The translations under genes and the position numbers were made by a program. From IMG/VR virus record IMGVR_UViG_3300030616_000506, positions 1 through 64,000 of that record: a stretch of DNA of 64,000 nt; one strand, written 5' to 3'. Shown here in pieces: positions 1,416 to 64,000 of the stretch. Within the stretch, counting starts at the first letter, position 1. Each line of letters opens with the position of its first letter. Origin of the DNA: a virus. Below the pieces are notes generated by a model, which was given only the letters and a program-made list of their open reading frames with translations, was not told the origin of the DNA and searched no databases.

Positions 1416-3821
1416 ATGACTCAAAAAGAATTTGATGCACTGAAATACTCTATAGATCCTATAGCCTTTATGAAGGAAATATTAGGACTAAAGTGTGAGT
1501 GGTTTCATCAAGAGTGGTTAAAGTTATTTGAAGACAATAACTTTATTTCCTTATTAGCTCCAAGAGGACATGGTAAGGAAGAAGATATAAATACACCTAT
1601 ATTAACTCCAAATGGTTGGAAGAAAATGGGAGACCTTCTTATAGGAGATTATGTTATAGGCTCTGATGGCAAACCAACTAAAGTAATAGGAGTTTACCCT
1701 CAGGGAGTTAAAGAAGTATATAAAGTAGAAACGTCTGATGGTAGAAGTACAAGATGTGGGAAAGAACATCTATGGACAGTACAAACTCCTAGTAATACCA
1801 AAGATAAATTTATAACTAAAACTACATTAGAATTATCTAAGAATTATAAATCAAAAAGATTTGATAAACGTAATGGTAAACATTACATAGAATATAGACA
1901 CTTTATACCTACTGTATCTCCAATTGAATTTGAAGAGAAAAAATTATTGATAGAACCTTATACTCTAGGTGCTTGGTTAGGTGATGGAGACTCTAATGGT
2001 AATGGATTTACTACTGCAGATGAAGAAATATTAAGATATTTAAATTATGAGATTACTTCACGGAAGAGAAAATATCGTTATGGTCTTATAGGATTAAAAA
2101 CTCACTTAAAAGAATTAGGATTAATAAACAATAAGAGTATTCCAGAAGAATATTTATTTGCAAGTAAAGAGCAAAGGATTGCTTTGCTACAAGGATTGAT
2201 GGATACTGATGGTAATAATCAAACTGATGGTCATGTATTTGAATTTAATAATTCAAATTATGAATTGATAAATGGTGTTCTCGCTTTAATAAGAAGTCTG
2301 GGAGGCACAGGTAAACTTTCAGAAAGATACACATCTTATTCAGGATCAAATAATAAATTTAAGAGTTATAGAATTACTGGAAAAGTTCCGAAAAGTATAA
2401 TACCTTTTAGATTAAAAAGGAAAATAGAACAATGGAAAGGAAGTTTAAAAACTCGCTCTTCAATCATTAATATATCCAAAGATGGATATGCTGAATGTCA
2501 GTGTATACAAGTAGAAAATGAAGATGGTTTATATATAACAAAAGATTATCTTCTTACACATAACACTGTATTAGTAAGCTCTTATCTTACATGGAAAATT
2601 GTACAGGACCCCGATATTAGGATATTAACGGTCACCATTAATCAAGATAAAGCTAATGAAATGATGTCTCTATTGCAATCAGCTTTAGAGAGAAATGAAA
2701 GATTAATAGAAATATTTGGCCAACAGAAGGGATATTCTGATTGGTCTAGATCTACCCTAAGAGTTATGAGAGCTGGTAGATCAGGTAAAGCTCATAAAGA
2801 ACCCACCTTCACTGTAGTAGGTGTAACGGCATCTATGGTTGGTGGGCATTACGATATAATAATATTAGATGATATAACTGATCAAAACAATTCAAGAACT
2901 GAACATAGAAGAAGAGATTTAGTTGATTGGTATAATTCAACATTGACTCCTATGTTAGAACCTGAGGGAAAGATAATCTCTATAGGAACTAGATGGCATG
3001 AATCAGATATACATACCTACTTACAAAAATTACCAAACTTTGAATCAAAAATATATAAAGCTATATTGGATGATGAAAACAAGGAAGTCTTATGGCCAGA
3101 ACAGTGGACATACGACAAACTAATGGAAAGAAAATATGGAATGGGATCTCTTAGTTTTCAGATGCAATATCAAAATGAAATAATATCTCATGAAGATTCT
3201 CCTATAAAGAGAGAATGGGTTGAAAACTCTATAAATAAATATAAGATGATACCTCAACCCTTTGAAACATTCATGGGAGTAGATCTCTCATCTAAGGGTG
3301 AAGAGACAGATTACTTCACCATAACTATAATAGGAATCCATGAAGGTATGATATATATACTTGATGGACTAAGAACCAAGGCATCCTTATTTAAACAATT
3401 TGAGTTAATAAAATCTTATGACTCAAAGTGGCAACCCTCTAAGATAGGAATTGAACAAGCTGCACAACAGAAAATGATAGTAGATCAACTAGTAGAATCT
3501 ACCACTCTACCAATAATTCCTATAAAGTCATCTATCGTTAGCGATAGAATGTCTAGGGTTCAACGATTATCAGTTTTATTTGAAACAGGAAGAGTTTATT
3601 TAAATCCAAACCTAGAGGATTGGGCTAACGAGATGATATATTTTCCAAGAGGATCTCATGATGATACCATAGATTCTCTCTCATTTGCAATTCAAGCTTC
3701 ACAGTCTGATGAAGAAGAACATAAAATTGATTGGACTCAAGTTAAAGAAATGATAGTAACTAGAAAGGATGTGGGTACAAAACCCATTGTTAAGAGAGAT
3801 TATAGGATAACAAAAATATAG
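1416..3821 (+). CDS. terL: terminase large subunit with intein
   Basis: This is the ATP-driven DNA-packaging motor and nuclease. The precursor has 801 residues, of which 329 (55-383) are an intein, leaving a 472-residue terminase of ordinary size. The Walker A region is split: APRGHGK precedes the intein and TVLVSSYLTW follows it. Walker B is IIILDD at about residue 481. Nuclease acidic positions appear in GVDLSSKGEETDY near 620 and GSHDDTIDSL near 746. The intein thus interrupts the ATP-binding loop, and the enzyme should be inactive until splicing. An AGGAGG ribosome-binding site for the next gene overlaps the stop region. Confidence 0.92.
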   Translation: MTQKEFDALKYSIDPIAFMKEILGLKCEWFHQEWLKLFEDNNFISLLAPRGHGKEEDINTPILTPNGWKKMGDLLIGDYVIGSDGKPTKVIGVYPQGVKEVYKVETSDGRSTRCGKEHLWTVQTPSNTKDKFITKTTLELSKNYKSKRFDKRNGKHYIEYRHFIPTVSPIEFEEKKLLIEPYTLGAWLGDGDSNGNGFTTADEEILRYLNYEITSRKRKYRYGLIGLKTHLKELGLINNKSIPEEYLFASKEQRIALLQGLMDTDGNNQTDGHVFEFNNSNYELINGVLALIRSLGGTGKLSERYTSYSGSNNKFKSYRITGKVPKSIIPFRLKRKIEQWKGSLKTRSSIINISKDGYAECQCIQVENEDGLYITKDYLLTHNTVLVSSYLTWKIVQDPDIRILTVTINQDKANEMMSLLQSALERNERLIEIFGQQKGYSDWSRSTLRVMRAGRSGKAHKEPTFTVVGVTASMVGGHYDIIILDDITDQNNSRTEHRRRDLVDWYNSTLTPMLEPEGKIISIGTRWHESDIHTYLQKLPNFESKIYKAILDDENKEVLWPEQWTYDKLMERKYGMGSLSFQMQYQNEIISHEDSPIKREWVENSINKYKMIPQPFETFMGVDLSSKGEETDYFTITIIGIHEGMIYILDGLRTKASLFKQFELIKSYDSKWQPSKIGIEQAAQQKMIVDQLVESTTLPIIPIKSSIVSDRMSRVQRLSVLFETGRVYLNPNLEDWANEMIYFPRGSHDDTIDSLSFAIQASQSDEEEHKIDWTQVKEMIVTRKDVGTKPIVKRDYRITKI
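1578..2564 (+). mobile_element. class 3-like intein with LAGLIDADG endonuclease
   Basis: The element occupies residues 55-383 of the terminase precursor. Its first residue is Glu55, not the Cys, Ser or Ala seen in class 1 or 2 inteins. The Hint fold begins with NTPILTPNGWKKMGDLLIGD. It has the W-C-T set of class 3 inteins: Trp120 in the HLWTV block, Cys363 (or Cys361) in the AECQCIQV block, and Thr381 just before the terminal His-Asn. The +1 extein residue is Thr384. Two LAGLIDADG-like motifs, LGAWLGDGD near 184 and LLQGLMDTDG near 257, indicate a homing endonuclease in the middle. Whether it still cuts DNA cannot be told. Confidence 0.85.
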
Positions 3822-10307: not shown

Positions 10308-11282
10308 ATGAGCAAATTAACAAAACTTCTAGAATTTGGTTTTGCAGGAAACAATGAGAGATCAAGAATGCTCAATAAAGAGTCATTCAAAAATATAGTT
10401 GGAAAGGATACTCACTCTCTCTTACAATCTGAGAGAACAGCTATTTCTGATTCCACTTTAGTACAAGAAGAAGTCTATAAAACAGTTATAGAGGGTACAG
10501 AACCAGCCAGATGCATGAGAGAAGTAGTACCTATAATAAATACTAACTCTTATTCAGTTAGATTTGTAAAGGGAGAGGCAGGAACTTATGCAAATAAGGT
10601 AGCAGAGGGAGCCAAAATCGAAATTGATACACAAGAATATACAAAACAGGATATTACAATCGACAAATATGGAGTACGCCCATTGATTACAAATGAGTTA
10701 ATTGAAGATGCTTTATTTGACGTTGTAGAACTGGAACTTAAGAAAGCTGGTGCAAGAATGGAAAATGCTCTAAATAGAGCAGTTCTATATGAAATGGTAC
10801 AAGGTACATATAAATTCGATGCAAACACCGTTAATCCAGCTGGAACCCATATAGCTATCAGTGATATAGCTCAATTAATTGGAAAAATCAAAAAGGATAA
10901 CTATATCCCAGATACTTTGATTCTACATCCTACAGCTGAAGCATACTTACTTCAAGACTCTAATCTAGCATATGTATCATATGCAGGAAGTCCAGGAGCA
11001 TTAAGACAAGGAGATATTGGTGGAACCATAATGGGTCTAAAGCCATATGTTTGTACTACAACGGATGCATCATCTCCAACATGGGATGATACCACAGTTG
11101 CTTCAGATATCACTGCATTAGTATTTTCAAAGAATGATGCTGCAGCGATTTGTATGAGAAGAGACCTAACTATAGAGCAATATGATGATCCAATTCATGA
11201 TCTTATTGGAATTTCACTTACAATGAGATTTGGAACTGGTGTACTACAAGAAAATGCTGGTGGATCTATCTATCATAAATAG
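10308..11282 (+). CDS. major capsid protein, HK97-like
   Basis: The protein has 324 residues. Its pattern fits an HK97-fold capsid protein: an N-terminal helical arm, TVIEGTEPARCMREVVPII leading into the E-loop and spine region, IDKYGVRPLITNELIEDALF with a long spine helix, then the A-domain region ILHPTAEAYLLQDS, GTIMGLKPYVC and CMRRDLTIEQYDDPIHDL. Position after scaffold-protease and decoration protein, and before the connector genes, supports the call. No long pro-peptide is evident, which fits the separate scaffold. It probably forms the icosahedral shell. Confidence 0.85.
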   Translation: MSKLTKLLEFGFAGNNERSRMLNKESFKNIVGKDTHSLLQSERTAISDSTLVQEEVYKTVIEGTEPARCMREVVPIINTNSYSVRFVKGEAGTYANKVAEGAKIEIDTQEYTKQDITIDKYGVRPLITNELIEDALFDVVELELKKAGARMENALNRAVLYEMVQGTYKFDANTVNPAGTHIAISDIAQLIGKIKKDNYIPDTLILHPTAEAYLLQDSNLAYVSYAGSPGALRQGDIGGTIMGLKPYVCTTTDASSPTWDDTTVASDITALVFSKNDAAAICMRRDLTIEQYDDPIHDLIGISLTMRFGTGVLQENAGGSIYHK

Positions 11283-11622: not shown

Positions 11623-11638
11623 ATTATAGAGATTTTAA

Positions 11639-11908: not shown

Positions 11909-11910
11909 AT

Positions 11911-14383: not shown

Positions 14384-14384
14384 A

Positions 14385-14849: not shown

Positions 14850-14861
14850 AGGTGAATAATT

Positions 14862-15356: not shown

Positions 15357-15362
15357 TTAAAT

Positions 15363-48288: not shown

Positions 48289-48831
48289 ATGGCATCTGAT
48301 AAGCAAAATTATCCCAATGCTGGTCATAAAGCATTTCCCTATTTTTTTACTACTGATGAAGATGATGTTAATCCCATAGAGGGATTTTGGTTAAAGGAGC
48401 CTTACTCTCCACCCTTTGTGGAGGATTATAAATATAACTATGATCTAGCTATATTCTATAATTCTTTAGCAGGAAATGATTTTGTTGATTGTAGATGTAG
48501 CAGATGGGATATTCAGAATTATAATGTTATAGTGGAGACATGGTTAAATTCTACAGACTTAAAGAGTATTAGAGATAATATAAGACCTGGAGCTGTAGGT
48601 GAACTATATAATATATTAGGAAGACCTCGATATTACGATAAAACCTGGAGAGGTAAAAATACTCTAAGGTTATTACCTACACCATCATCTGCTAGTATGA
48701 GAACTAGTAATCTAAAAAATATGAGAGATGAGACATTAATATATGTTAAAAATATAACCACTCATCCCATAAATGAAAATTGGACTGAAATAAAAATAGA
48801 GGGAATGATTAGCGGAACTAATAGTTTATAA
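48289..48831 (+). CDS. tail-tip paralogue 3 with N-terminal extension
   Basis: Residues 65-180 match the gene at 41559: CRCSRWDIQNYNVIVETWLN, RPGAVGELYNILGRPRYYDK and IEGMISGTNSL. Residues 1-60 (ASDKQNYPNAGHKAFPYFFT, then WLKEPYSPPFVEDYKYNYD) are specific to this copy. The leader has a long TTTTTATATATATAAG stretch that could be a TATA element, though its distance to the ATG is short. It is the last gene of the plus-strand operon. Confidence 0.55.
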   Translation: MASDKQNYPNAGHKAFPYFFTTDEDDVNPIEGFWLKEPYSPPFVEDYKYNYDLAIFYNSLAGNDFVDCRCSRWDIQNYNVIVETWLNSTDLKSIRDNIRPGAVGELYNILGRPRYYDKTWRGKNTLRLLPTPSSASMRTSNLKNMRDETLIYVKNITTHPINENWTEIKIEGMISGTNSL

Positions 48832-49003: not shown

Positions 49004-49855
49004 TCAATCTTTATTTTTGGTGCTCATAGCACCCTTAATTTTAAGCCAATCTTTATTTTTTCTAATTTCTATATTCTTTTTCCATGATGCATCCAATACT
49101 TTTGGGTCTATGCCTAACTCTCTGGATTTATATATTAGTGATCTAAGATCCTTAGGAAAACATAATCCTCCAAAACCAAAGTCTCCATCATGTCCCGGAA
49201 CATCCATATGAGAATTACCTATTCTACCGTCAGCTAATAGCATTTTCTTTACCTCTTCAAAATCTATACCTAATTTTTGGCATATCTGATAATATTCGTT
49301 CATTAATGATACTTTAACTGAAAAGAAACAGTTGGCTGAATATTTAACCATTTCAGCTGTAGTTGGATCAGTCCAATATATAGGAGTATGGATAAATCTC
49401 TCTCTATAGAGTTTATCTACTTCACATAGATCATCTGGATCTCCCCCTATAATAATTCTAGAAGAATTTATAAAATCTAATTTTGATGTTCTTGCAGTTA
49501 AAAACTCTGGATTAAACACAATTCTTAAGTGAGGTATATTTTTTTTTATTCTCTCCGTAGTTCCAGGAGGAATAGTGGATTTTATTATAAGTATCTTTTT
49601 TGGAGTAATATATTCTCTACTTTTTTCTATTGTTTTTTCCAATATAGAAATATCACATTCTCCTGTATCAATATCAGATGGTGTAGGTACACATATAAAT
49701 ATAAAGTCACTATCCCTTATAGTCTCTTCAAATGTATTCTCAGATATAATAGGATCTATATCATATATTCTAAAATCAGCTATTTGAGCAAATCCATGTT
49801 GAATTGCTCTTCCGACCATTCCAAATCCTATAATTCCTATTATACATTTCTTCAT
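49004..49855 (-). CDS. short UDP-sugar dehydrogenase family protein
   Basis: The protein has 283 residues. Residues 1-170 form the NAD-binding domain (IGIIGFGMVGRAIQHGF, FIFICVPTPSD, STIPPGTTERIKK, NPEFLTAR). Residues 170-270 form the dimer domain with the catalytic motif FGFGGLCFPKDL (Cys plus Lys-Asp). The C-terminal sugar-nucleotide domain of about 100-150 residues is missing compared with UDP-glucose or UDP-N-acetylmannosamine dehydrogenases. It may be a shortened, still active enzyme making a uronic-acid-type sugar. It is the last gene of the minus-strand operon and overlaps the upstream methyltransferase gene (ATGA). Confidence 0.75.
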   Translation of the reverse strand: MKKCIIGIIGFGMVGRAIQHGFAQIADFRIYDIDPIISENTFEETIRDSDFIFICVPTPSDIDTGECDISILEKTIEKSREYITPKKILIIKSTIPPGTTERIKKNIPHLRIVFNPEFLTARTSKLDFINSSRIIIGGDPDDLCEVDKLYRERFIHTPIYWTDPTTAEMVKYSANCFFSVKVSLMNEYYQICQKLGIDFEEVKKMLLADGRIGNSHMDVPGHDGDFGFGGLCFPKDLRSLIYKSRELGIDPKVLDASWKKNIEIRKNKDWLKIKGAMSTKNKD

Positions 49856-52238: not shown

Positions 52239-53098
52239 ATTTTTCTCCATATTCTAGGTATACCATGTATCTCTTCTTTATCCTTTAATTCAACCTTAAG
52301 ATGTAATTCAAAACCATATTTAGGTAATAATTTCTCTATATTTAAGTTGTGTGCAGAATATTTCCAATTTTTACCATGATCTCTTATATAAAGTATACCG
52401 TCTTTCCTTATAACATCCCTAAATACATCCAGCATATAGTATACTAGATCTTCATTTATCTCTTGTAAAACTTGAACACAAAGTATTTTATCAAAGTAAT
52501 TCTTAGGTAAGATATCAGCTCTCCAAGTAGGTATATGGTATATTCCAGGATCATATATTTTTAATTTATTATTATCTAAATATTCTACTAATCGATGCTT
52601 TGATTTAGAATAGTATAGATTCTGCATACAATAAGACTGTAGTATAGCATCCATACCAACATATACTAGATCATCCTTAAATTGTGATAGTAAATTGATT
52701 TGTCTTCCATATCCTGGTCCGAAATCTAGAATTTTATTACCCTTATATAAATAAGTATATAAATAATCTTCTGCATTATATCTCCCTATAGTAGAATAAT
52801 ATTTATCAAAGTCTTTAATTTTTACAATAGCATCATCATAGAAATAACTAGAATTAATATAGGGTTCTATATAATCATCATCAATATTGTCTTTAAATTC
52901 ACTTTTAGATATCCAATCCATCCATTTATTTATATCCTTAATCCCTTCATAAGTATCAAAGGTTGATGGATAATTATCTGGATATTTAACATGTTCTATT
53001 CTCTCTTCTTGATAATCCCAAGATATCATCCAAGGTTTAATATATTTCTTATCTTCTTTAATTACTTCTCGAAATCTTCTTTCAATCTTAGTATGCAT
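52235..53098 (-). CDS. SAM-dependent methyltransferase
   Basis: The protein has 287 residues. Residues 1-115 are Tyr/Asp/Lys-rich and not recognised. Residues 118-260 form a class I fold: KILDFGPGYGRQINLLSQF is motif I, YVGMDAI the strand 2 end, KILCVQVLQEINEDLVYYML and GILYIRDHGKNW the later strands. It overlaps both neighbours. The substrate may be a glycan, a lipid-linked sugar or the phosphonate itself; methyl esters or O-methyl groups on hydroxyethylphosphonate are conceivable but unsupported by sequence. Confidence 0.7.
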   Translation of the reverse strand: MHTKIERRFREVIKEDKKYIKPWMISWDYQEERIEHVKYPDNYPSTFDTYEGIKDINKWMDWISKSEFKDNIDDDYIEPYINSSYFYDDAIVKIKDFDKYYSTIGRYNAEDYLYTYLYKGNKILDFGPGYGRQINLLSQFKDDLVYVGMDAILQSYCMQNLYYSKSKHRLVEYLDNNKLKIYDPGIYHIPTWRADILPKNYFDKILCVQVLQEINEDLVYYMLDVFRDVIRKDGILYIRDHGKNWKYSAHNLNIEKLLPKYGFELHLKVELKDKEEIHGIPRIWRKI

Positions 53099-53868
53099 TT
53101 TTTAATATCCCATTGATATTTAATATCTGACAAATCTACATCTCTATTTACAATCAAAGGAATTTCATCAATTTGATCATTTGTAAATGGTAAATCAGTT
53201 AATGTTCCATGATCAGAAGTTATTAATATAGTTTGATATCCAGATAACTCTTCTATATATTTAATTACCTCTCGATATCTTCTAACTCCCCATAGATAAA
53301 CTTCTTTCTTTAGAGCTTTATCTTTTCTTATTTCATCGTAAGTCTTTAATGAAGGTAATCTACCTAATTCATATGGGCCAGGAAACATAACTGCTCCCTT
53401 AACTATAGATGAATGTATCCAGAATAAGTCATAGTCATCTCTTGCAGCTTCAGCAAATATACAAAGCTCTTCACAAGGTACTCTCTTAACACCTTTATCT
53501 TCTAGACTATGATAAAATTTCCATACTTGTTCACCAGAATATGGAGAATCTCCTACAACTTTCTCAAAGAATTTTGACTTATCAAAGTGATCCCAGACTA
53601 AATCTAATTTATTACCAAATCTATCTTCCCAAATGAAGGATTCGGTTTTATATTTATCTGTAAATCTAGTAAAGAAATCTGGATGTAGATTCTTAATTCT
53701 CTCTCCACTCCATAAACAAGTTAGTCCTATAGGAGTAGCTGATACTCCCTGCATCGAGAATGGTCTAACATCGCATCTTATCATCCTCATGGATTGCTCT
53801 TTAAATATATCTTTATATAAATCTTTTGCATATTTCCAGTTTAATCCATCAATACTAATTATTATCAT
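53062..53868 (-). CDS. alkaline phosphatase-superfamily enzyme
   Basis: The protein has 268 residues. The metal- and nucleophile-site layout of type I phosphodiesterases is visible: IIISIDGLNW (Asp7), GVSATPIGLTCLWSGER with Thr45 as likely nucleophile, and ILITSDHGTLTDLPFT with the Asp-His pair. It lacks a signal peptide and membrane segments. The family includes phosphodiesterases, sulfatases and phosphoethanolamine or phosphoglycerol transferases. It overlaps the phosphonate gene upstream by one base, so it may transfer the phosphonate from CMP to a sugar or hydrolyse an intermediate. The first is my inference. Confidence 0.65.
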   Translation of the reverse strand: MIIISIDGLNWKYAKDLYKDIFKEQSMRMIRCDVRPFSMQGVSATPIGLTCLWSGERIKNLHPDFFTRFTDKYKTESFIWEDRFGNKLDLVWDHFDKSKFFEKVVGDSPYSGEQVWKFYHSLEDKGVKRVPCEELCIFAEAARDDYDLFWIHSSIVKGAVMFPGPYELGRLPSLKTYDEIRKDKALKKEVYLWGVRRYREVIKYIEELSGYQTILITSDHGTLTDLPFTNDQIDEIPLIVNRDVDLSDIKYQWDIKKCILRLKEDFEK

Positions 53869-55151
53869 TATATTAATTCAACTATCTCTTTAATTGTACA
53901 ACATTTATTATTTACATCAAAACTTCTCTTATTTATTAATATAGATTCTGCCACTATTTTCATACTTAAATAACTAGCTCTTAACAAATGATTTGCATAT
54001 ATTACTATTGATGCTCCTAATTTTTGTAAATCTTCTTCATACATATGATTATATGTACTTGGAACTAATACTAGTGGAACTCTATTTTTAATATTTTTAT
54101 ATTTATTACAAAATTCTATTAATTCTGTTGGTATATGGTTTTTACTATGTATCATAATAGCATCTGCACCAGCTGATATATAAGCTTTTGCTCTGATTAA
54201 AGCATCTTCAACTCCTTTATTAGCAATTAATGATTCTATTCTAGCTATTATCATAAAATCTTCTGTTAATTTGGAATTAATACCCAATTTAATTTTTTCA
54301 CAGAAATTCTCTACAGATTCTTGAGAGTGAGTAGTATTATCTAACAATGAATTTTTTTTAGGATATTTTTTATCTTCTATTATTATAGCAGAGACTCCTA
54401 TTCTTTCTAGTGTTTTTACCATAGATACAAAATTCTCTTTTGTTCCTCCAGTATCACCATCTACTATTATAGGCTTAGTGGTTACTTCTATTATTTCATT
54501 TACTCTCTGAAGTCTAGATGTGAAGTCTACTATTTCTATATCAGGTTTTCCTTTAGATGCAGAATCAGTTAAACTACTTTCCCATATTGCATCAAACTCT
54601 AGTATATTATTATCATTTTCTATTTTAGTCTTTTCTACTATAATACCTGATAGTCCATTATGAGATTCTAGTACTCTAACTAATGGCTTATACTTTAATA
54701 GGTTCTTTAGAGCTTTTCTTCTCTCATTTGGAGTTATACCATTTTTTAATTTGTTATTTATTAATTTAGTGGAGGATATCCCCTCAGTATAAGATGGCTC
54801 TATTAATTCTCCACCCCATTCACTAATAATATCTATAACATTCTGTCTTATCTCTGACTGTATTCCCTTCTTCCAATCATCACCATGCACTACATAATCT
54901 GGTTTATATTTAATGAGGTTATCTGTATAATCTAATGTATATTGAGGTACTACTCTAGTAACTCCATTTATATTACTAATAACTTTTTTTCTTTGTTCGT
55001 ATGAAGTTATTGGAACTCTTTTATATGAAGCTATAGCTTGATCTGTTAATAGACCTACTATTACATCTCCATAATCTCTAGCTTTATCAATTAGATTAAT
55101 ATGACCTACATGCAGGTAATCTGCTGACATTCCAACATATACTGTCTTCAT
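53868..55151 (-). CDS. pepM: cytidylyltransferase-PEP mutase fusion
   Basis: The protein has 427 residues. Residues 1-140 are a nucleotidyltransferase, with DYLHVGH (His14, His17) and GISSTKL near 125, which attaches CMP. Residues 150-427 are PEP mutase, with DGDTGG near 228 and EDKKYPKKNS near 259, matching the EDKX5NS signature of true mutases and not of the related lyases. The mutase turns phosphoenolpyruvate into phosphonopyruvate, forming a C-P bond. The domain order is that of Fom1 in fosfomycin synthesis and of enzymes that make CMP-phosphonates for glycans. The start overlaps the stop of the dehydrogenase gene. Confidence 0.92.
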   Translation of the reverse strand: MKTVYVGMSADYLHVGHINLIDKARDYGDVIVGLLTDQAIASYKRVPITSYEQRKKVISNINGVTRVVPQYTLDYTDNLIKYKPDYVVHGDDWKKGIQSEIRQNVIDIISEWGGELIEPSYTEGISSTKLINNKLKNGITPNERRKALKNLLKYKPLVRVLESHNGLSGIIVEKTKIENDNNILEFDAIWESSLTDSASKGKPDIEIVDFTSRLQRVNEIIEVTTKPIIVDGDTGGTKENFVSMVKTLERIGVSAIIIEDKKYPKKNSLLDNTTHSQESVENFCEKIKLGINSKLTEDFMIIARIESLIANKGVEDALIRAKAYISAGADAIMIHSKNHIPTELIEFCNKYKNIKNRVPLVLVPSTYNHMYEEDLQKLGASIVIYANHLLRASYLSMKIVAESILINKRSFDVNNKCCTIKEIVELI

Positions 55152-55771
55152 AATAACTCTCTTACTTTTTTATATTCAGTAGCTAGATTTAATATATGAG
55201 CTAATGCTACACCATGAGGTATATCATATTTAGCAGTTAGTGCATATGACATACCATGTATTATATTAGTTCCAGTATAATCTATAGCATTACCAGCTAA
55301 TATACTAGCATATAACCAATCATCATTTCTTATAGATTCTATAGCTTCTAAACAAATTGTAGCTATATGAGGTTTACATTTCTTAGATGTAAATGATTCT
55401 ATAATATGACATAGACAATCTATCTTACTAGCTATTTCTATCTCTTTTGGTAGATGCTCTAAATATTCATATTTTAATTTAGTTAGTGGTAACTTACAAT
55501 CTATGTTATGTTTCTTTCCTTCATGCCAATATACTGCGTGTCTCGTTCCAGATGCACCTGAGTATGTAGTAGGTATTGCTATTATTTGATATCTACATAA
55601 AATCTTAGCAGTATCTATCACAGAACCCCCTCCAATAGCTATGACCTCATCATATAGATTTCTCTTCTGGACTATTCTTATATCTGGTGGATGCTCTACT
55701 ATATATATTTTATCATATTTCCAATCATCTGCATATTTCCTAGTTGAAGGGCTTACAACCATTAATCTCAT
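55148..55771 (-). CDS. short iron-type dehydrogenase, phosphonoacetaldehyde
   Basis: The protein has 207 residues against about 370-390 in usual iron-dependent alcohol dehydrogenases. It keeps the NAD loop AIGGGSVIDTAK (46-56), PTTYSGASG (67-75) and all four metal ligands: Asp118, His122, His172 and His186 in IDCLCHIIES, IIHGMS and DIPHG. The C-terminal helical bundle is cut short. Next to phosphonate genes it should reduce phosphonoacetaldehyde to 2-hydroxyethylphosphonate, as FomC-type enzymes do. The alternative, transamination to 2-aminoethylphosphonate, has no dedicated aminotransferase in this stretch. It overlaps both neighbours. Confidence 0.8.
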   Translation of the reverse strand: MRLMVVSPSTRKYADDWKYDKIYIVEHPPDIRIVQKRNLYDEVIAIGGGSVIDTAKILCRYQIIAIPTTYSGASGTRHAVYWHEGKKHNIDCKLPLTKLKYEYLEHLPKEIEIASKIDCLCHIIESFTSKKCKPHIATICLEAIESIRNDDWLYASILAGNAIDYTGTNIIHGMSYALTAKYDIPHGVALAHILNLATEYKKVRELL

Positions 55772-56249
55772 TATAAAACCTCTCAGTTATATCTTTATGT
55801 TTCATATCTATTCTAGGTGGTATATCTTTATCATCTTTCTTTATTTTTATTACACTACAGTTACATAGGTCAGTAAAATTAATAGCATCACTACAAGTTT
55901 TCTGTCCACCTGTACTTTGATATTGATTATTATCTAATATACATAATGTAAGATTTGGTAAATCTAACTTATTCATTAATGTTAATGTACCTAAACTCAT
56001 TAATACCTCTCCATCACCAGCTATTACTAATACTTCTCTATTGGTATGTAGAGCTAATCCTATTCCAAATCCCAATGCAGATCCCATGGAACCCATCATA
56101 TAGAAGTTAGCTGGTCTGTCACATACTCTATATAATTCTCTACTTATCATTCCTGCAGATGAAACTACCAGTTCATCATCAAATCTTTTTGATAAAAGTT
56201 CTACGATTTCTCTTCTTGATTTTAATGAATTTGTAATTATCATATTCAA
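55740..56249 (-). CDS. ppd: phosphonopyruvate decarboxylase, TPP subunit
   Basis: The protein has 169 residues and corresponds to the C-terminal half of single-chain Ppd. It has MGSMGSALGFGIGLAL, the thiamine-diphosphate motif beginning IAGDGEVLMSLGTLT (GDG at 78-80, Asn-Asn at 107-108) and LDNNQYQSTGGQKT. Phosphonopyruvate decarboxylase removes CO2 to make phosphonoacetaldehyde, which drives the unfavourable mutase step forward. The other subunit is encoded just upstream and overlaps by 71 bases. The split form resembles sulfopyruvate decarboxylase ComDE of methanogens, but the PEP mutase neighbour favours phosphonopyruvate. Confidence 0.88.
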   Translation of the reverse strand: MNMIITNSLKSRREIVELLSKRFDDELVVSSAGMISRELYRVCDRPANFYMMGSMGSALGFGIGLALHTNREVLVIAGDGEVLMSLGTLTLMNKLDLPNLTLCILDNNQYQSTGGQKTCSDAINFTDLCNCSVIKIKKDDKDIPPRIDMKHKDITERFYNEINGCKPFN

Positions 56250-56544
56250 GTAATTCTAATAAATATTTGGATATCTTATACATAAACTTATGATGTGCAG
56301 GATCTTTCCTCAAACTTATAATCAAGTGAGGTAGTGGTATATTATAAGGCTTATATAGACTAGTTACTATATCTACTATATTACCTATTCCACTATTTTG
56401 CATATACACTTCTGGTTTCTTACCTGCAAACCATGCTCCAGCTGCGATAGCCATAGCTTCTCCTTCACTAGTGCATGGTACATCTACATCTTTAATAAAT
56501 TCCTTTAATTTAGAGCAAGGAATTCCATACTTAATCTTCTTCAT
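56179..56544 (-). CDS. ppd: phosphonopyruvate decarboxylase, PYR subunit
   Basis: The protein has 121 residues and is the N-terminal half of Ppd: YGIPCSKLKEFIKDV, CTSEGEAMAIAAGAWFAGKK (with the Glu that activates thiamine diphosphate at 27 or 29), VYMQNSGIGNIVDIVTSLYK and the histidine region DPAHHKFMYK. It pairs with the TPP-binding subunit made by the next gene. The start overlaps the end of the small zinc-ribbon gene by 14 bases. The two halves together (290 residues) are shorter than a typical single-chain enzyme, so the linker domain is missing. Confidence 0.88.
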   Translation of the reverse strand: MKKIKYGIPCSKLKEFIKDVDVPCTSEGEAMAIAAGAWFAGKKPEVYMQNSGIGNIVDIVTSLYKPYNIPLPHLIISLRKDPAHHKFMYKISKYLLELLEYDNYKFIKIKKRNRRTFIKKI

Positions 56545-57352: not shown

Positions 57353-57955
57353 TCATTCATATATCTGCAATTTTAATACATCTTCAATTGATTTTAAATC
57401 TTTTTCAAAGAATTCTACATTATTTCTTATTTTGTTATCATCCCAATCCCACCATTTTAATTTTAAGAGATATTTTCTAATATCCTCATTAAATCTATAT
57501 TTTATACGCTTAGCTGGTACTCCTCCAACTATTGAATAGTGATCTATGTCTTTAGTTACTACTGCTCCAGCTCCTATTACAGCTCCATTACCTATAGTTA
57601 CTCCTTCTAGAATTATTACTCTAGTTCCTATCCACACATCATTTCCTATATTAACTGCTTTTTTACTATTTCTTAAACCTCGATTACCTATGATTGTGTC
57701 ATATAAAGCTCTACTTATAGAAGGTTGTTTGGTATTATAATTAACTGTTTGAAATATAACTTCTCTAGCTATATTACAATATTTACCTATATTTATCTCT
57801 CCACCATAAAATTCACACCCTTCATTAACTATACTTCCGTGATCTAGATAAACATTTCCCTTAACTTTAGTATTTATATTACTAACTCCAGTATGTCCTC
57901 TAACAAAAAACTTACCTTTGCCTCTCATATAAATTTGTTTGTATCCTTCTTTCAT
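57353..57955 (-). CDS. hexapeptide-repeat acetyltransferase
   Basis: The protein has 200 residues. A left-handed beta-helix is built from repeats such as [30 protein letters not shown] and [17 protein letters not shown]. The C-terminal [14 protein letters not shown] is the usual acyl-CoA-site end of WbbJ/maa-type O-acetyltransferases. Members acetylate sugars in surface polysaccharides. It overlaps the radical SAM gene start by four bases and precedes the sulfotransferase, so both probably decorate the same glycan. Confidence 0.85.
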
Positions 57956-59202
57956 ACTTTATCCTTATGTCTAAATACAACATATCTTCTATATTTATCT
58001 ATCAATCTCTTTTGCTCATATCTTAAATCTTCATTTGATAAAGTCTTTGTGTTCACCCAATTATTATTGTATTCATCAAAGGTTGACCAATCCCAATCTT
58101 TCATCAAATCATGATCATAATATTCGTTATTAGGGAACGGTGATAATAAAGCAAATCCTACCATATCTGGCTCTAATTCATCACATAATTCTTCTGTCAT
58201 TTTTATATCTTCAATTGTTTCATTTGGCATTCCTAATAAAAAATAAGCTCTAGTTTTAATACCATACTCTTTAGTTAATTTGAATGCATCCCTTATCTTA
58301 TCTACATTTGTATGTTTATTCATATCCTTTAGTATTCTAGGAGATCCACTCTCTACTCCATACCATAATTCTGTACAGTTAGCTTTATATAGATGTTCCA
58401 ATAAATCTCTGTTTATGGTATTAACGTGAGCATTAGCACCAAAAGGTATATTAATATTTCTTTTAATCTTCTCATTACAGAATTCTTTTACCTTACCTCT
58501 ATTTAAGGTAAAGGTATCATCTGCAAACTTTATAAAATCTATATTCCACTTATTTACGGTATATTCAAATTCATCTAAAACATTAATTGGAGATCTTATT
58601 CTAGCTTTACTACCCCATAAAAATCTACTACAACAAAAGCTACAATTAAATGGACATCCTCTACTACTAAATATAGATGTTATTCTCTTACCTCCATCAT
58701 TATAAGCTTGTTGTATATTCCTCTCATTCTTGATAGTATCCCTATCAGGATAAGGTAAGTTATCTAAATTCTTAATAGATCTAGAATTAACTATAGTATT
58801 TCTACTTTGTCTATTTTCTAATATATTTCTAACTATCCTATAGAAGGATAACTCTCCCTCTCCCTCTATGACTATGTCTACATCTTTCTCTCTTATAACA
58901 TCTTTAGGTAGACATGTAGGATGTATTCCTCCCATAACTATCCAATTATTTTCACTTCTTAATTTCTTAGATAAATCAAGAGCATGTTTAAATTGTGGAC
59001 TAGTGCATCCGAATCCTATTATATCAGAATCTTCTGCTCCTCTTAATATGGTTTTATCACTATCATAAAAACCTGAATAGAAATTTATATCTAAATCTTC
59101 TTTAATATATTTTCTCAAAGTAGATATTATATATCCTATACCAAGTGCTTCCCATGTATGTCCTTTATATCCAACATTAGGTTGTATAAATGTTATTTTC
59201 AT
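57952..59202 (-). CDS. B12-binding-type radical SAM enzyme
   Basis: The protein has 416 residues. Residues 1-140 resemble a cobalamin-binding domain ([44 protein letters not shown]). Residues 170-400 are a radical SAM barrel with [14 protein letters not shown], the Cys-x3-Cys-x2-Cys cluster near residue 183, and [20 protein letters not shown]. Members include methyltransferases of phosphonate (Fom3 type), glycan and lipid substrates. In this window the phosphonate genes lie four genes downstream, so a C-methylation of the phosphonate is possible, though sugar or lipid targets are at least as likely. Confidence 0.85.
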
Positions 59203-59936
59203 TTAGCCTCTATTAATTTCCACCCATTTCTTGTGGCCCATCTAACATATCCAGTTCTGTTTATCCAGTGCTCTTGTCTTCTCCAAGATGCAGTTGCATC
59301 ATCATCTTTATTAGGCATTATTTCTTTTTTATACATTGGTAACATCCCTTCTTCTGGTGGATGTGGGGTATAAACTTTGCAGTTACCATATTTCTGTATT
59401 GTGTATGCAAAGTGCATATCCGATATAGCTACATAGGTAGGAGGTTTCTCTCTTAGAAAATGTTGTGTATAACTATTTGGATAAAAAGATACTCCTCCAC
59501 CAAAATCTACTAGTTCTAACTCTCCATTCCTTACTTTACTTGATATTCTAGTATTAGGAAGATAAGATTTCTTACTACTTAATCTAACTCCTCTCTGTAC
59601 ATACCATCCTTGAGTCTCTTCTTGCTTCTTAATAGCCCACTCTACAAATTTAGGACCTGGAGGTCTATCATCATCTATGGCTAATATATAATCAGACTTA
59701 GTTAGATGTCCTAACATTATAAAGGCTATAGTTTCAAACCTATTAGTATTACTATTAATAATATCTATCTTTAGCTCATCATCTTTTATATGTATATCCT
59801 TACCATCTTCAGTACAATTATTATTCCATATCATTACCCTCTCTATAGGATATGTAAATTCTTTTATTCTCTTTATTAGAATAGGAATATTATCTGGTCT
59901 TCTATAAGATGGTATTAGGATTGTTACTGATTTCAT
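59199..59936 (-). CDS. glycosyltransferase, GT-A fold
   Basis: The protein has 245 residues. It opens with VTILIPSYRRPDNIPILIKR and carries SDYILAIDDDRPPGPKFV, with the Asp-x-Asp metal motif near residue 90. The middle half has YLPNTRISSKVRNGELELVD, then FGGGVSFYPNSYTQHFLRE as the acceptor region. It is the size of small single-domain GT2-like enzymes and should add one sugar to the glycan. It overlaps both neighbours by four bases. Confidence 0.8.
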   Translation of the reverse strand: MKSVTILIPSYRRPDNIPILIKRIKEFTYPIERVMIWNNNCTEDGKDIHIKDDELKIDIINSNTNRFETIAFIMLGHLTKSDYILAIDDDRPPGPKFVEWAIKKQEETQGWYVQRGVRLSSKKSYLPNTRISSKVRNGELELVDFGGGVSFYPNSYTQHFLREKPPTYVAISDMHFAYTIQKYGNCKVYTPHPPEEGMLPMYKKEIMPNKDDDATASWRRQEHWINRTGYVRWATRNGWKLIEAK

Positions 59937-60889
59937 TCTACCTCATCTAACAGTTTTCTTATATACTTCTTATCTCCCTTAAAGAACATATCTTCTTTAT
60001 ATCCACCATTATCTATATCTCTTTCTATAACTAATAAGTCATCTATTTCCTTTATAGCTGATATTTCATCATCATATAGAATTTCTTCATATATTTTTTC
60101 ACCTGGTCTTATACCTATTCTCTCTATCTTAACGGTCTTATCTTTAGAATATTTATCTATAAGAGCATCAATTATATCTCCAGTTTTGATGATGGGCATT
60201 CTCTTTAGGAATATCTCATCTCCTTTAGATAAATATAATCCCTTAATAACTATCTCTGCAGCCTGGACTGGTTTTAAATAGAATCTGGTCATCTTTAGAT
60301 CTGTTATAGTTATAGGTTCTCTCTCTTGTATTTGTTCCTTAACTATAGGAACTACGGATCTATTGGAGAATAAGACATTACCGAATCTAGTTACTGAGAA
60401 TATTGTATTCTTATATTTCTTGCTAGCTAATCTAGTTAGATATTCTCCTATTAGTTTAGTCATTCCATAATAACTAATAGGATTTACAGCTTTATCTGAA
60501 CTTAGATATATAAATTTCTTAATATCATATTTACCACTACATTTTATAACATTTTTTGTTCCATTTATATTAGTATCATATACCATATCTCTAAATTCTT
60601 CTGCTTCTGGAACAAATTTATATGCAGCAGCATGTATTACATAATCTACATTATAAAATAAATCATCTAACTCATTTAAATTTCTAATATCTACATGTTC
60701 TAAATTAAATTTAGACCAGTTATCATAGAAATCTTCTTTAAATTCCAATAATTCACCTATATCATTGGATATTATTTTGATTAATTTTATGTCATACTTT
60801 AATAAATTTCTACATATTTCTTTACCTATAGATCCACTTCCACCTGTTATTAGAATGATTTTGTTTTTATAAAAATCTTCTATTTCCAT
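59933..60889 (-). CDS. UDP-GlcNAc 4,6-dehydratase-like (CapD/PseB)
   Basis: The protein has 318 residues. IILITGGSGSIGKEICRNLL is the NAD-binding loop, HAAAYKFVPEAEEF matches the family's AAxKHVP-like signature, and YLSSDKAVNPISYYGMTKLI has the catalytic SDK and Tyr-x-x-x-Lys. RFGNVLFSNRSVVPIVKEQI and GIRPGEKIYEEIL complete the soluble PseB/FnlA-type enzyme. It dehydrates UDP-N-acetylglucosamine to a 4-keto-6-deoxy sugar, which the DegT aminotransferase at the right end could aminate. It is soluble, without the membrane part of CapD. Confidence 0.88.
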   Translation of the reverse strand: MEIEDFYKNKIILITGGSGSIGKEICRNLLKYDIKLIKIISNDIGELLEFKEDFYDNWSKFNLEHVDIRNLNELDDLFYNVDYVIHAAAYKFVPEAEEFRDMVYDTNINGTKNVIKCSGKYDIKKFIYLSSDKAVNPISYYGMTKLIGEYLTRLASKKYKNTIFSVTRFGNVLFSNRSVVPIVKEQIQEREPITITDLKMTRFYLKPVQAAEIVIKGLYLSKGDEIFLKRMPIIKTGDIIDALIDKYSKDKTVKIERIGIRPGEKIYEEILYDDEISAIKEIDDLLVIERDIDNGGYKEDMFFKGDKKYIRKLLDEVE

Positions 60890-61917
60890 TTTAAATCTTT
60901 AATATTATACATTGGTACATCCATAAACTTATTCCAATTAGGATCCAATTCTCCTTTGTTGTGATTATGCCACATCTTATATCTTCTAAGTTGAATTTTA
61001 GAGGGTTTCCAAGAATTAGCTCTTATATGTTTAACTCTAAATATATTTCTCATCATAATATCATCTCTAATTTGTGGTTTAGGAGCAGGATCATCTATTT
61101 CATATATATAATTTTGTGATGCAACTCTTTTGTATTTACTTATCATGGCTAATCTATTACCAGCATCCATATCAATACCGGCTAGGGCTCCATCGTATAA
61201 CTCATCATATCCATTAATTTCTAACATTTCTTCCATTGATACTGTAGCTGAACATGTCCAAAACATATTCATTGGTATCACTGGGTGTATTTCATCAGTA
61301 AATGTTAAAGGCTTATGTTCTCCTCTCCATCCATCCTTTATGAATTCTACCTTTCTAGGGCCTAATTTCTGTTCCTTTTCATAATTATACTTGTCCTTAT
61401 CGTATTTAATACACCTAAAGGATCTTCCCGTCATATATTTACCTTCTTTCCATAGGTTCCATATCTCCTCTAGTATATATTTATTGAATATGATTAAATC
61501 ATCTATATGCCATATAAGTTCTCCATCTGCATTAATAACTCCAGTATTCTTATTATTTGCTACTGTTTGATATTGTGGACCTAATTTATGCCATATAGAA
61601 GGTTTTTCCTTAACTAGCTTTATTGGAAAATTACATTCCTTCTGATATTCTCTTACGAGTTCTTCTGCATCTTCTGGATATCTATGGCTGATGATCAATT
61701 CAAAATCCTTAAATGTTTGGCTCTCCAAACAATTAAGGGTAGGCTCCAGTATATGTTTAGCATTGAACAAATTCCATCCAGCTAATTCTATAAATTCATC
61801 TGTGAATATTGAGTTATAATCATCAGTTTCTTCTAAACCTTTCTGTATTTCATTCATTTTATGTATAACATTTTTATTTAATCTGTTTGTAGTTAGTATA
61901 ACACTAATTTTATGCAT
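60880..61917 (-). CDS. glycosyltransferase-like protein (345 aa)
   Basis: The start ISVILTTNRLNKNVIHKMNE and the later FKDFELIISHRYPEDAEELV, NADGELIWHIDDLIIFNKY suggest a GT2 glycosyltransferase, with His-Ile-Asp-Asp as the metal-binding acidic pair. A long insert follows residue 22. The C-terminal third (MFWTCSATVSMEEMLEINGY, GALAGIDMDAGNRL) has the typical acceptor loop with Asp-x-Asp. It overlaps both neighbours. It is probably the second sugar-transfer step in the operon. Confidence 0.75.
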   Translation of the reverse strand: MHKISVILTTNRLNKNVIHKMNEIQKGLEETDDYNSIFTDEFIELAGWNLFNAKHILEPTLNCLESQTFKDFELIISHRYPEDAEELVREYQKECNFPIKLVKEKPSIWHKLGPQYQTVANNKNTGVINADGELIWHIDDLIIFNKYILEEIWNLWKEGKYMTGRSFRCIKYDKDKYNYEKEQKLGPRKVEFIKDGWRGEHKPLTFTDEIHPVIPMNMFWTCSATVSMEEMLEINGYDELYDGALAGIDMDAGNRLAMISKYKRVASQNYIYEIDDPAPKPQIRDDIMMRNIFRVKHIRANSWKPSKIQLRRYKMWHNHNKGELDPNWNKFMDVPMYNIKDLKWK

Positions 61918-63295
61918 ATAATCCTTCCTTAAGTTGTTTGTAATTATTATAAATTTTATCCTTATATTTACTATACTCTTCAGATACTTCTATGATTTCC
62001 TTTATTCCATCATCTATACTATACTTATACCTTATACCTAACTCTTTCATTAATTTAAGAGAATTTATTATATAGTCTCTCTTATCTAACATATCTTCTT
62101 TTGTTCTTATATCACAATCTGGTATAATGCTCTTTATCTTTTCACCTATTGTACGGATATCTTCACTCTCTGAAGATATATTGTAGGTTTTACCCTTAAT
62201 CACATTTATTGGAGCTTCTATACACTTCTTATATATAAGAGCTGCATCCTTTACATGACAGAATCCTCTATATTGATTTCCTCCATATATAGTTATCTCC
62301 TTATCTATACAACCCTTTATTGATAGAAGATTGATAACCAAATCAAATCTCATCCTATCTGATAAGCCATATAAAGTGCCCATCCTTAATATTATTGGTG
62401 AGAAGTTTTCATCTGATAACTCCAATATCCCCTTTTCTGATTCTAGTTTCATTCTTGCATAAAGAGATACTGGATTTAACTCAGATTTCTCATCTAATAA
62501 ACGGTTGTGCTTACTTGCTCCATATACACTACAGGTTGATGCAAATATAAATCTATTTATTTGACTATACTTACAAATCTCTGCAATCATCTTTGATGCT
62601 AAGTAGTTAATCTCTATTGTTTCTTCTGGATTTAAAGAGGATGCTTCATCTCCAACTATAGCTGCTAGATGAATAACAGCATCCACACTCTTGGTAGCTT
62701 CTATCAAATCCTTTAGGTTTCTTATGTCTCCCAATATAAATTTAAAGTTCGGATTGTTCTCTATTTTCTCTATACCTGATCTACCATAAGTTAGGTTATC
62801 CAAAACCTTAACCTTATAACCTGCATCCAATAATATCTTAGAAAGAACTGACCCTAAGTATCCTGCTCCACCTATTATTAAAATATTTTTTATTATATTA
62901 TTTTCCTTATACCCATCCTCTAATTTTCCTTGATAACCCTTTTCTGATATGAATATTACATCAATTATCTTATCTTCCTCATCTATTATAGGTATAGCTA
63001 AAACTCCTCTCTCAGGTAATTTCTTCCTTACATTTTTCTTGTTTAATATATTCTCTATAGTTAATTTATTCCATCCCCTTCTTAGGAATATAGGTTTCTT
63101 ATTTATGATATCAACTATATTATCTTCAACTGTGTGACCTTTTAGAATAGCACTCCTAATATCTCCATCTGTCACAGATCCAATCAATTTATTGTTTTCA
63201 GTTATAAATAATATACCATAACCCATTATATCTAACTTCTTCATTATACCCTTTAGGTTGTTTGATTTGTCTGCTATTATAGAATTCAATTTCAT
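61910..63295 (-). CDS. CBS-pair domain fused to SDR epimerase
   Basis: The protein has 461 residues. Residues 1-125 are two CBS repeats (YGILFITENNKLIGSVTDGD, then VLAIPIIDEEDKIIDVIFIS). Residues 133-450 are an extended SDR (ILIIGGAGYLGSVLSKILLD, VIHLAAIVGDEASSLNPEET, FASTCSVYGASKHNRLLDE, LYARMKLESEKGI). CBS pairs bind adenosyl nucleotides and regulate partner enzymes; they occur beside sugar nucleotidyltransferases in glycan clusters. Fusion to an epimerase is unusual and may place nucleotide-sugar flow under energy control. It overlaps both neighbours. Confidence 0.8.
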   Translation of the reverse strand: MKLNSIIADKSNNLKGIMKKLDIMGYGILFITENNKLIGSVTDGDIRSAILKGHTVEDNIVDIINKKPIFLRRGWNKLTIENILNKKNVRKKLPERGVLAIPIIDEEDKIIDVIFISEKGYQGKLEDGYKENNIIKNILIIGGAGYLGSVLSKILLDAGYKVKVLDNLTYGRSGIEKIENNPNFKFILGDIRNLKDLIEATKSVDAVIHLAAIVGDEASSLNPEETIEINYLASKMIAEICKYSQINRFIFASTCSVYGASKHNRLLDEKSELNPVSLYARMKLESEKGILELSDENFSPIILRMGTLYGLSDRMRFDLVINLLSIKGCIDKEITIYGGNQYRGFCHVKDAALIYKKCIEAPINVIKGKTYNISSESEDIRTIGEKIKSIIPDCDIRTKEDMLDKRDYIINSLKLMKELGIRYKYSIDDGIKEIIEVSEEYSKYKDKIYNNYKQLKEGLYA

Positions 63296-64000
63296 TTATA
63301 ATATTCCTTTATTTTATCTGCTACATAATCTACTTCTTTAAATGTTAGGGATGGATATAAAGGTATATTTAATATCCTTTTAGAGATTTTTTCTGTTACT
63401 GGAAGTTTAATCCTTTTATCATAATATAGTGGAGTCAAATGTACAGGTGGATCAAAATAAGGTTTTGTTGATATTCCATTATCTAATAAATATTTCATTA
63501 GATTATCTCTATCATTCACTTCTATTGGCATCATTTGAAAGACATGATGAAAATATGGATTTATTGGAGGTCTATTAATGTTTATATATCTATGTAATTT
63601 ATGGATGTATCTTTCAGCTAACTTTCTTCTTTTATTAGAATATATGTAAATATCCTTAAGTTGAGAAATAGCCAAAGCTGCACATATGGTTGGCATTCTA
63701 AAGTTATATCCTAGATATATATATTCATCATCTTTTCTTCCATGTGACCTTATTAATTTTAATTTTTCATATATCTTATCATCATCTAATACTAGTAATC
63801 CTCCCTCTCCTGAAGTTATTACTTTAGTCTGACATAGACTATACATTCCACAATTTCCGAAGGAACCAGTATGGTCTCCATATATTCTAGCACCCATGGA
63901 TTCTGCTGCATCTTCAAAGAATAATAACTTATGATCTTCTGCTAAATCTTTTAGAGCCTTTGTATAATATGCTGGACAACCTGCATAGTGAACTACAGTT
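63292..64000 (-). CDS. DegT/DnrJ sugar aminotransferase (partial)
   Basis: The reading frame is open to the window edge, so the start lies beyond base 64000; the frame read back from the edge gives VVHYAGCPAYYTKALKDLA and FFEDAAESMGARIYG. The EDAAES block and the SLCQTKVITSGEGGLLV block with the PLP-binding Lys are typical of DegT/DnrJ/EryC1 enzymes. The C-terminus (YFHHVFQMMPIEV, ISTKPYFDPPVHLTPLYY) completes the fold. It aminates a 4-keto sugar made by the dehydratase in the same operon. It is the first gene seen of the minus-strand operon. Confidence 0.9.
   Translation of the reverse strand, partial: TVVHYAGCPAYYTKALKDLAEDHKLLFFEDAAESMGARIYGDHTGSFGNCGMYSLCQTKVITSGEGGLLVLDDDKIYEKLKLIRSHGRKDDEYIYLGYNFRMPTICAALAISQLKDIYIYSNKRRKLAERYIHKLHRYININRPPINPYFHHVFQMMPIEVNDRDNLMKYLLDNGISTKPYFDPPVHLTPLYYDKRIKLPVTEKISKRILNIPLYPSLTFKEVDYVADKIKEYYK

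Follow-up and report, generated by a model that had tools for sequence, protein, structure and literature searches.

The 64,000-nucleotide stretch of DNA analysed here, referred to as the window, covers bases 1-64000 of the 144,545-bp virus record IMGVR_UViG_3300030616_000506 and carries at 53868-56544, on the minus strand, what is probably a viral phosphonate cassette. The products of its four genes would convert phosphoenolpyruvate (PEP) to 2-hydroxyethylphosphonate (HEP) activated with cytidine monophosphate (CMP-HEP), from which a soluble transferase would place HEP on a viral or host glycan. A broader proposal, to which we give about even chances, is that the cassette and its partner gene form an old, mobile viral module of five genes with streamlined enzymes, which adds carbon-phosphorus groups to virion or host glycans in viruses of archaea and bacteria. 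According to this proposal, the alkaline-phosphatase-superfamily (AP) member of the module would take the place of LicD as a CMP-phosphonate transferase that is soluble and of a new class.

Enzymes encoded by the cassette

A preliminary description of the window, made from the sequence alone, had named four consecutive overlapping genes at this position, and the coordinates, open frames and family matches determined here agree with it (Table 1). The genes are open and their motifs are intact. The overlaps are 71 nt between the genes of the alpha and beta chains of phosphonopyruvate decarboxylase (Ppd), 32 nt between those of Ppd beta and the alcohol dehydrogenase (ADH), 4 nt between those of the ADH and the mutase, and 1 nt between the mutase gene and the gene at 53062-53868. 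For comparison, the virus database IMG/VR was scanned with mutase and ADH queries, and the records found were pooled with that of the window to a total of 40; the compared loci and contigs carry L numbers. Related sets were found, and all four genes are present in 27 of the 40 pooled records, which is no frequency among viruses because the records were selected by a mutase or ADH match.

The largest protein of the cassette is a fusion of a cytidylyltransferase domain with a PEP mutase, as had been noticed before. It scores 379.2 bits against the PEP mutase equivalog TIGR02320, above the cut-off of 319.55, and contains the EDKX5NS motif in the form EDKKYPKKNS. The same motif occurs in every non-redundant viral mutase of at least 330 aa and E <1e-60 (26 of 26). 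An isocitrate-lyase-type activity of the mutase, previously named as grounds for rejecting the pathway, is not predicted by this signature and equivalog score. The N-terminal domain matches PF01467 with HxGH (HVGH) and ISST-type motifs, as expected for a cytidylyltransferase of the Fom1 type. The closest solved relative of this domain (E 3e-50) is PDB entry 5x3d, titled 'phosphoenolpyruvate phosphomutase', which we take to be the cytidylyltransferase domain of Fom1.

The decarboxylase is split into two chains, in agreement with the two-subunit enzyme suggested earlier. Ppd alpha has the conserved Glu at residue 27 (SEGEAMA), which all 24 viral rows of the alignment share, and a QNSG motif. Ppd beta has the thiamine diphosphate (ThDP) motif GDG...NN, found as GD[GA]...N in 26 of 26 viral rows. 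Both halves of the enzyme are thus present with their Glu and ThDP motifs. The chains score 110.2 and 82.3 bits against TIGR03297, below the cut-off of 312.5 bits set for a single chain. The two-chain protein may work as Ppd, yet it is not a typical member of TIGR03297. Phosphonopyruvate is the preferred candidate substrate because the mutase gene is its neighbour.

The iron-type ADH, also recognized in the preliminary description, belongs to its family by its PF25137 and PF00465 scores, a GGGSVIDTAK nucleotide loop and four ligand positions. Residues D118, H122, H172 and H186 align with those of solved iron-type ADHs, are presumably the metal ligands, and are invariant in 12 of 12 aligned viral rows. 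The best NCBIfam match is the phosphonate-cluster ADH TIGR03405, with 71.7 bits against a cut-off of 423.7.

Viral origin of the locus

A second virus record, that of L002 (G001, 137,847 bp), is collinear with the window: 87 query open reading frames of at least 80 aa have matches, a few of them nested or spurious. The terminase of L002's virus is approximately 58-59% identical to that of the window, and the cassette proteins are 67% (mutase), 56% (ADH), 49% (Ppd beta) and 61% (Ppd alpha) identical. The glycan operon converges on structural genes in both records; in G001 the convergence lies between 82670-83500 (dehydrogenase) and 84313-84795, with an extra glycan-side gene, 83487-84191, between them. 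A chimeric assembly, which the preliminary description had named as a possible refutation, is very unlikely because the four genes are found at the corresponding junction of the collinear virus as well. The recurrence of the same four genes side by side in other virus records excludes chance.

It is extremely improbable that the locus stems from contamination with bacterial DNA or from a chimeric contig, or that it consists of passenger genes in decay. Cellular homologues of the set are many (at least 552 relatives), but the collinear record with the same junction, a GC content of 28-34% throughout that junction, the viral-only clade of short ADHs and the purifying selection described below argue against such an origin. 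Terminase models also match other contigs (PF03237 in 4 and phrog_2 in 6 of 25), which is weak on its own since both models match control genomes as well, phrog_2 in 11 of 14; the virus status of most contigs therefore rests on IMG/VR. The T4-type capsid protein PF07068 was found in none of 24 contigs, in a search whose control was also empty.

Predicted pathway

Family membership and the established chemistry of the Fom1, Ppd and PhpC types predict the steps from PEP to CMP-HEP. The mutase would convert PEP to phosphonopyruvate, which the two-chain ThDP decarboxylase would pull forward to phosphonoacetaldehyde. The short iron-type ADH would reduce phosphonoacetaldehyde to HEP, and the fused cytidylyltransferase would activate HEP to CMP-HEP. 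A soluble transferase could then move HEP onto a hydroxyl of a viral or host glycan or glycoprotein made by the surrounding operon. In many cassettes this transferase would be an AP-superfamily enzyme with an invariant Thr at the putative nucleophile position, and in others a LicD-type protein; the candidate in the window is the product of 53062-53868. We infer the transfer step from gene order and position, fusion and replacement, and we likewise infer the glycan acceptor and a benefit of HEP decoration. The decorated surface would alter receptor binding, defence or superinfection. The sequence supports the earlier proposal of a route from PEP to CMP-HEP whose genes are part of a glycan operon convergent with structural genes.

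HEP is expected rather than 2-aminoethylphosphonate because the repeated four-gene set has a reductase and no aminotransferase, although no search was aimed at 2-aminoethylphosphonate transaminases. A variant in which a viral or host aminotransferase leads the pathway to 2-aminoethylphosphonate, or to a phosphonate modified further, and the short ADH has another role is improbable. A short ADH occurs in all 27 full cassettes (broken in L170), its putative ligands are invariant in the 12 rows aligned, and the closest solved cytidylyltransferase is 5x3d, presumably Fom1, whose substrate is HEP. On the other side, the L195 locus has a mutase and a one-chain Ppd without an ADH, and bacterial phosphonate capacity is mostly for surface tailoring with molecules such as 2-aminoethylphosphonate, according to one study (PMC6697681).

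Synthesis of a small secreted phosphonate, such as an antimetabolite of the fosfomycin type, instead of a glycan decoration is highly improbable. The glycan operon does encode a B12-binding radical SAM protein nearby (57952-59202), which is presumably of the same class as Fom3. However, no radical SAM gene was seen by eye beside the cassette of L002, and the usual neighbours of the cassettes, also judged by eye, are glycan-type genes. A Fom3 role of the 57952-59202 protein is not supported: its best NCBIfam match is BchE, below the cut-off, and Fom3 is absent among the 25 families listed of 35. The match of 57353-57955 to the phosphonate-family hexapeptide protein TIGR03308 is also below its cut-off.

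A fifth gene as the putative transferase

The cassette is often accompanied by a protein of the AP or the LicD type. The gene at 53062-53868 adjoins the cassette in both the window and L002, whose counterpart is 46% identical. Another family, AP2, which has no clear Pfam match, is encoded next to the mutase in 14 of the 40 contigs, and its proteins are 342-408 aa long when whole. The AP2 gene is positioned directly upstream of the mutase gene, downstream of it (L003, where AP2 is cut by the contig end), between the mutase and Ppd genes (L192), or fused to the mutase gene in frame (L158). The L158 fusion encodes 801 aa as assembled, not checked in reads. The AlphaFold2 (AF2) model of AP2, built from ten sequences, has an AP-superfamily fold with a predicted local distance difference test score (pLDDT) of 78 and a predicted template modelling score (pTM) of 0.84. 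Foldseek matches the model to 3lxq (E 1e-8), YejM and LtaP, and VIA aligns it with a sulfatase (Z 22.7, root-mean-square deviation 3.5, 299 aligned) and with LtaS (Z 19.6). Residues D9, T37, H175, D210 and H211 of AP2 are invariant in 10 of 10 rows. The motifs D, T-x8-SG and DHG of the window protein stand in the same order as in AP2. A sequence search of the PDB with both AP alignments gave no trustworthy match, and none of the five proteins tested has a stretch hydrophobic enough for a membrane anchor.

LicD (PF04991) is present in 8 of the 34 contigs searched and AP2 in 14, and the two never occur together (P ~0.007 if the contigs were independent, which they are not). Outside the 34, the L014 contig has LicD and a cytidylyltransferase without the mutase motif. 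A different protein of the Sulfatase family, above the cut-off, is encoded just upstream of the mutase in L197. By analogy, the AP-type protein would pass the phosphonate to a glycan, the same job as that of LicD: in bacteria, phosphonate genes with cytidylyl activation are reported to have LicD-like phosphotransferases next to them (PMC6697681).

It is possible, but rather unlikely, that the pathway runs as predicted while the AP protein is a hydrolase, acting as a phosphodiesterase or on phosphonate esters or CMP-HEP, and that HEP is moved by another enzyme of the operon or host. The structural matches listed for AP2 are mostly sulfatases and include the phosphonate monoester hydrolase 4upk beside phosphotransferases of the LtaS/LtaP type, and the shared fold shows no function. 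Nevertheless, the fusion of AP2 to the protein predicted to make CMP-HEP in L158 and the replacement of AP2 by LicD elsewhere fit a transferase better. Furthermore, the putative nucleophile, positioned by motif, is a Thr and not the Cys or Ser that sulfatases convert to formylglycine.

Distribution and evolution of the cassette

The order mutase-alpha-beta-ADH is found in 25 of the 27 complete sets, and alpha-beta-ADH-mutase in the other two, those of the window and L002. Apparent near-copies among the records (L151/L152, L150/L153, L155/L157/L164 and L013/L167) reduce the number of separate lineages. The viral ADHs have 207-289 residues compared to a cellular median of 374. In the ADH tree, 28 short viral ADHs, including that of the window, form one clade, and the ADH of L172 is positioned outside it on a very long branch. 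The ADH of L170, which is split into two frames, was left out of this tree. The mutase tree contains a viral clade of 18 rows, a separate clade of the window, L002 and L015, and six more viral rows elsewhere, so that the trees support a single viral origin only for the ADH. The mutase tree consists of 104 deduplicated rows of 330-460 aa; L203 was omitted, as was L181, which shares its contig with L158, and the AP part of L158 was removed. Its cellular rows are the best 80 of at least 552 relatives and two faecal fragments. The ADH and Ppd trees were filtered by length and E-value, and all trees are quick trees without bootstrap. The dN/dS ratios of 0.03-0.25 in four closer pairs indicate purifying selection on the genes tested; between the window and L002 the ratios are 0.27-0.46, where dS is 0.8-1.4.

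Among 80 cellular loci, the best of at least 552 relatives, a Ppd chain is present in 74 and an ADH of at least 330 aa in 70, short Ppd alone occurs only in L015, and the two AP profiles have no matches. L015 is a 4.2-kb contig binned as Thermoplasmatota, with a split Ppd, a mutase fusion and, by eye, a LicD-like open end; it may be a viral contig binned into a metagenome-assembled genome. No isolate phage with the set was found among 50,697 phage records (INPHARED) with the mutase and the L159 ADH as queries, and the L159 ADH had no match. The only INPHARED records matching the mutase over most of its length are two faecal fragments labelled 'Bacteriophage sp.', MT837901.1 and MT836947.1. They were not counted as phages: they encode mutase fusions and a Ppd that is partial or of one chain, and by eye they resemble capsule loci of bacteria. 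A separate viral protein of 853 aa (L203:2730) has a cytidylyltransferase-like match to the mutase fusion without EDKX5NS.

Several observations weigh against a conserved viral HEP pathway with an AP-type transferase. Ppd beta scores higher with the sulfopyruvate decarboxylase beta family TIGR03846 (E 2e-37, 129 bits; cut-off 221.5) than with TIGR03297. Large portions of the N- and C-terminal regions typical of its family are missing from the ADH, whose score is far below the TIGR03405 cut-off. The 53062-53868 protein was assigned from motifs and sub-threshold matches only, to PglZ for the window protein and to Sulfatase, Phosphodiest and Metalloenzyme for that of L002; we take these four Pfam families to be one clan. 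Its AF2 model, built from two sequences, is poor (pLDDT 35), and when profiles were compared, no real similarity to AP2 emerged outside the DHG stretch. The AP2 of L154 is a fragment of 111 aa, and both AP2 and LicD are absent from 12 of the 34 contigs. The AP2 contigs belong mostly to one clade and include near-identical records, which makes the mutual exclusivity of AP2 and LicD weakly independent.

Thirteen of the 40 pooled records are also incomplete at the thresholds used, with at least one of the four genes missing, some at contig ends and some as odd subsets. In L160:4275-6381 the mutase is followed by the ADH with no Ppd between them, and L201:1100-2930 has the order cytidylyltransferase-ADH-LicD and no mutase. 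Lone cytidylyltransferases near the fused one, without a mutase, are encoded at L199:5992-6405 (138 aa) and L200:5944-6411 (156 aa). The mutase (PF13714) was found in none of the 39 capsid relatives of the window virus, mostly fragments with two longer than 100 kb, and the set is therefore not fixed in the group.

The virus record and genes around the cassette

Genes for the terminase, portal and HK97-type capsid protein are all detected in the window, as expected for a tailed virus. Nine of the 11 isolate records matching the capsid protein are haloarchaeal tailed viruses, with identities of at most 29.4%. The remainder of the record contains a long region of glycan genes, judged partly by eye, followed by genes for a B-family DNA polymerase, a Rad51/RadA-like recombinase and a primase-like protein. 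The record is read, from these sequence features, as a tailed virus of an archaeon with archaeal-type features. A search for the capsid protein in ten archaeal genomes, made without a positive control, gave no match. The polymerase was rejected as a guide to the host: 197 of 292 genomes of Thermoplasmatota, the phylum of L015, matched, the best with an E-value of 3.5e-18 and at approximately 20-30% identity, which is unspecific.

Table 1. Positions of the cassette genes and of other features in the window
Feature	Coordinates	Strand	Evidence
Ppd alpha, N-terminal half of phosphonopyruvate decarboxylase, 121 aa	56179..56544	-	TIGR03297 positions 6-126, E 3e-23
Ppd beta, C-terminal thiamine pyrophosphate-binding half, 169 aa; TTG start at 56249 uncertain	55740..56249	-	PF02775, E 7e-14; TIGR03297 positions 170-298, E 1e-31
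Reduced iron-type ADH, expected phosphonoacetaldehyde reductase, 207 aa	55148..55771	-	PF25137 and PF00465, above cut-offs
Cytidylyltransferase (residues 1-135) fused to PEP mutase (residues ~148-427), 427 aa	53868..55151	-	TIGR02320, PF13714, PF01467; matches to PDB 5x3d and 5unc
Candidate phosphonate transferase, 268 aa	53062..53868	-	AP-superfamily signature by motif only: D7, T45-x8-SG, D219-H220
Nucleotide-sugar dehydrogenase (UDP-glucose dehydrogenase type), final glycan-operon gene before the convergence	49004..49855	-	TIGR03026, 190.0 against a cut-off of 189.8; L002 gene 66% identical
Structural-side gene converging on the operon, no assigned function	48289..48831	+	61% identity over 135 aa to G001 84313-84795 (-), same junction
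HK97-type major capsid protein	10308..11282	+	phrog_10, E 3e-16
Terminase large subunit, intein-bearing	1416..3821	+	phrog_38, E 5e-85; intein-type domains; homologue in L002's virus

The terminase contains an insertion at approximately residues 55-383 that has no counterpart in that of L002, with a match to LAGLIDADG_3 above and Hint-type matches below the cut-offs; it is probably an intein with a homing endonuclease. The gene pair 13904-14383 and 14385-14849 is apparently duplicated in tandem as 14862-15356 and 15363-15806 (window 13904-15806), since the paired genes share their best matches in L002's virus. The glycan region contains genes of a nonulosonic-acid-like (pseudaminic- or legionaminic-type) pathway at 59933-63897 and L005:293-7031, which resemble those of PseB, PseC, NeuB and a CMP-sugar synthetase. 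In the same virus, L006:14562-15446 encodes another protein in which motifs like those of alkaline phosphatases were recognized by eye, with no Pfam match listed even at E 10; its counterpart in L002's virus is 54% identical. The related-looking pair L006:10513-11253 and 11486-12172 has a GHG...SC-type pattern that, by eye, recalls caspase-like peptidases.

Relation to known systems

Fosfomycin synthesis starts with Fom1, which combines a mutase and a cytidylyltransferase, Fom2, which is Ppd, and the reductase FomC. The cassette is expected to share these four activities, and it has the N-terminal cytidylyltransferase-mutase fusion with 5x3d as its closest solved relative. It differs in its Ppd of two small chains, in an ADH of about half the size, and in its glycan and viral context. 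Fom3, FomD and Fom4 were not named among the matches listed for the ten neighbour genes scanned.

The bacterial phosphonyl tailoring (Pnt) clusters are alike in part: the study of Rice et al. 2019 (PMC6697681) gives HEP as the substrate of the Fom1 cytidylyltransferase, reports a fusion of the mutase with PF01467 in 23.6% of 1485 mutases, and places LicD and glycan genes near mutase fusions with cytidylyl activation. They are unlike the viral cassettes, in which Ppd is split and the ADH is short. The glycoconjugate region of the Cobalt Borg, an archaeal extrachromosomal element, is described as having, within a surface-decoration region, 'genes that may form phosphonates' and a likely fusion of a mutase with a cytidylyltransferase (PMC12660748, 2025). 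However, Borgs are not tailed viruses, Ppd and ADH are not named in the section on this region, and the likeness is drawn from its published description. The isolated Vibrio phage Va2 has a mutase-like domain annotated 'phosphoenolpyruvate mutase' (MW073017) with 29% identity over part of its length, but its EDK and NS are six residues apart, it has no HxGH, and neither Ppd nor ADH is among the annotated neighbour genes listed.

The preliminary description knew of no virus with the complete set. This agrees with our searches, as none was found in the literature searched, which was mainly open-licence with subscription journals largely absent; the claim is tempered by the Borg element with its likely fusion. 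The fifth cassette gene, the occurrence of the set in further viruses and the markedly reduced length of the ADH go beyond that description. The chemistry of the pathway is known, whereas the viral carriers, the reduced enzymes and the AP partner are new to the searches made.

For marine cells, Acker et al. (PMC8931226) propose that phosphonoglycoproteins at the cell surface give protection from viral lysis and from grazing. A route to activated HEP in viruses turns this picture of cellular protection round, as viruses could carry the decoration themselves. The cassettes are a possible viral source of phosphonate esters, for which a candidate for the transfer step is named here, and their Ppd and ADH give biochemists unusually small enzymes to study.

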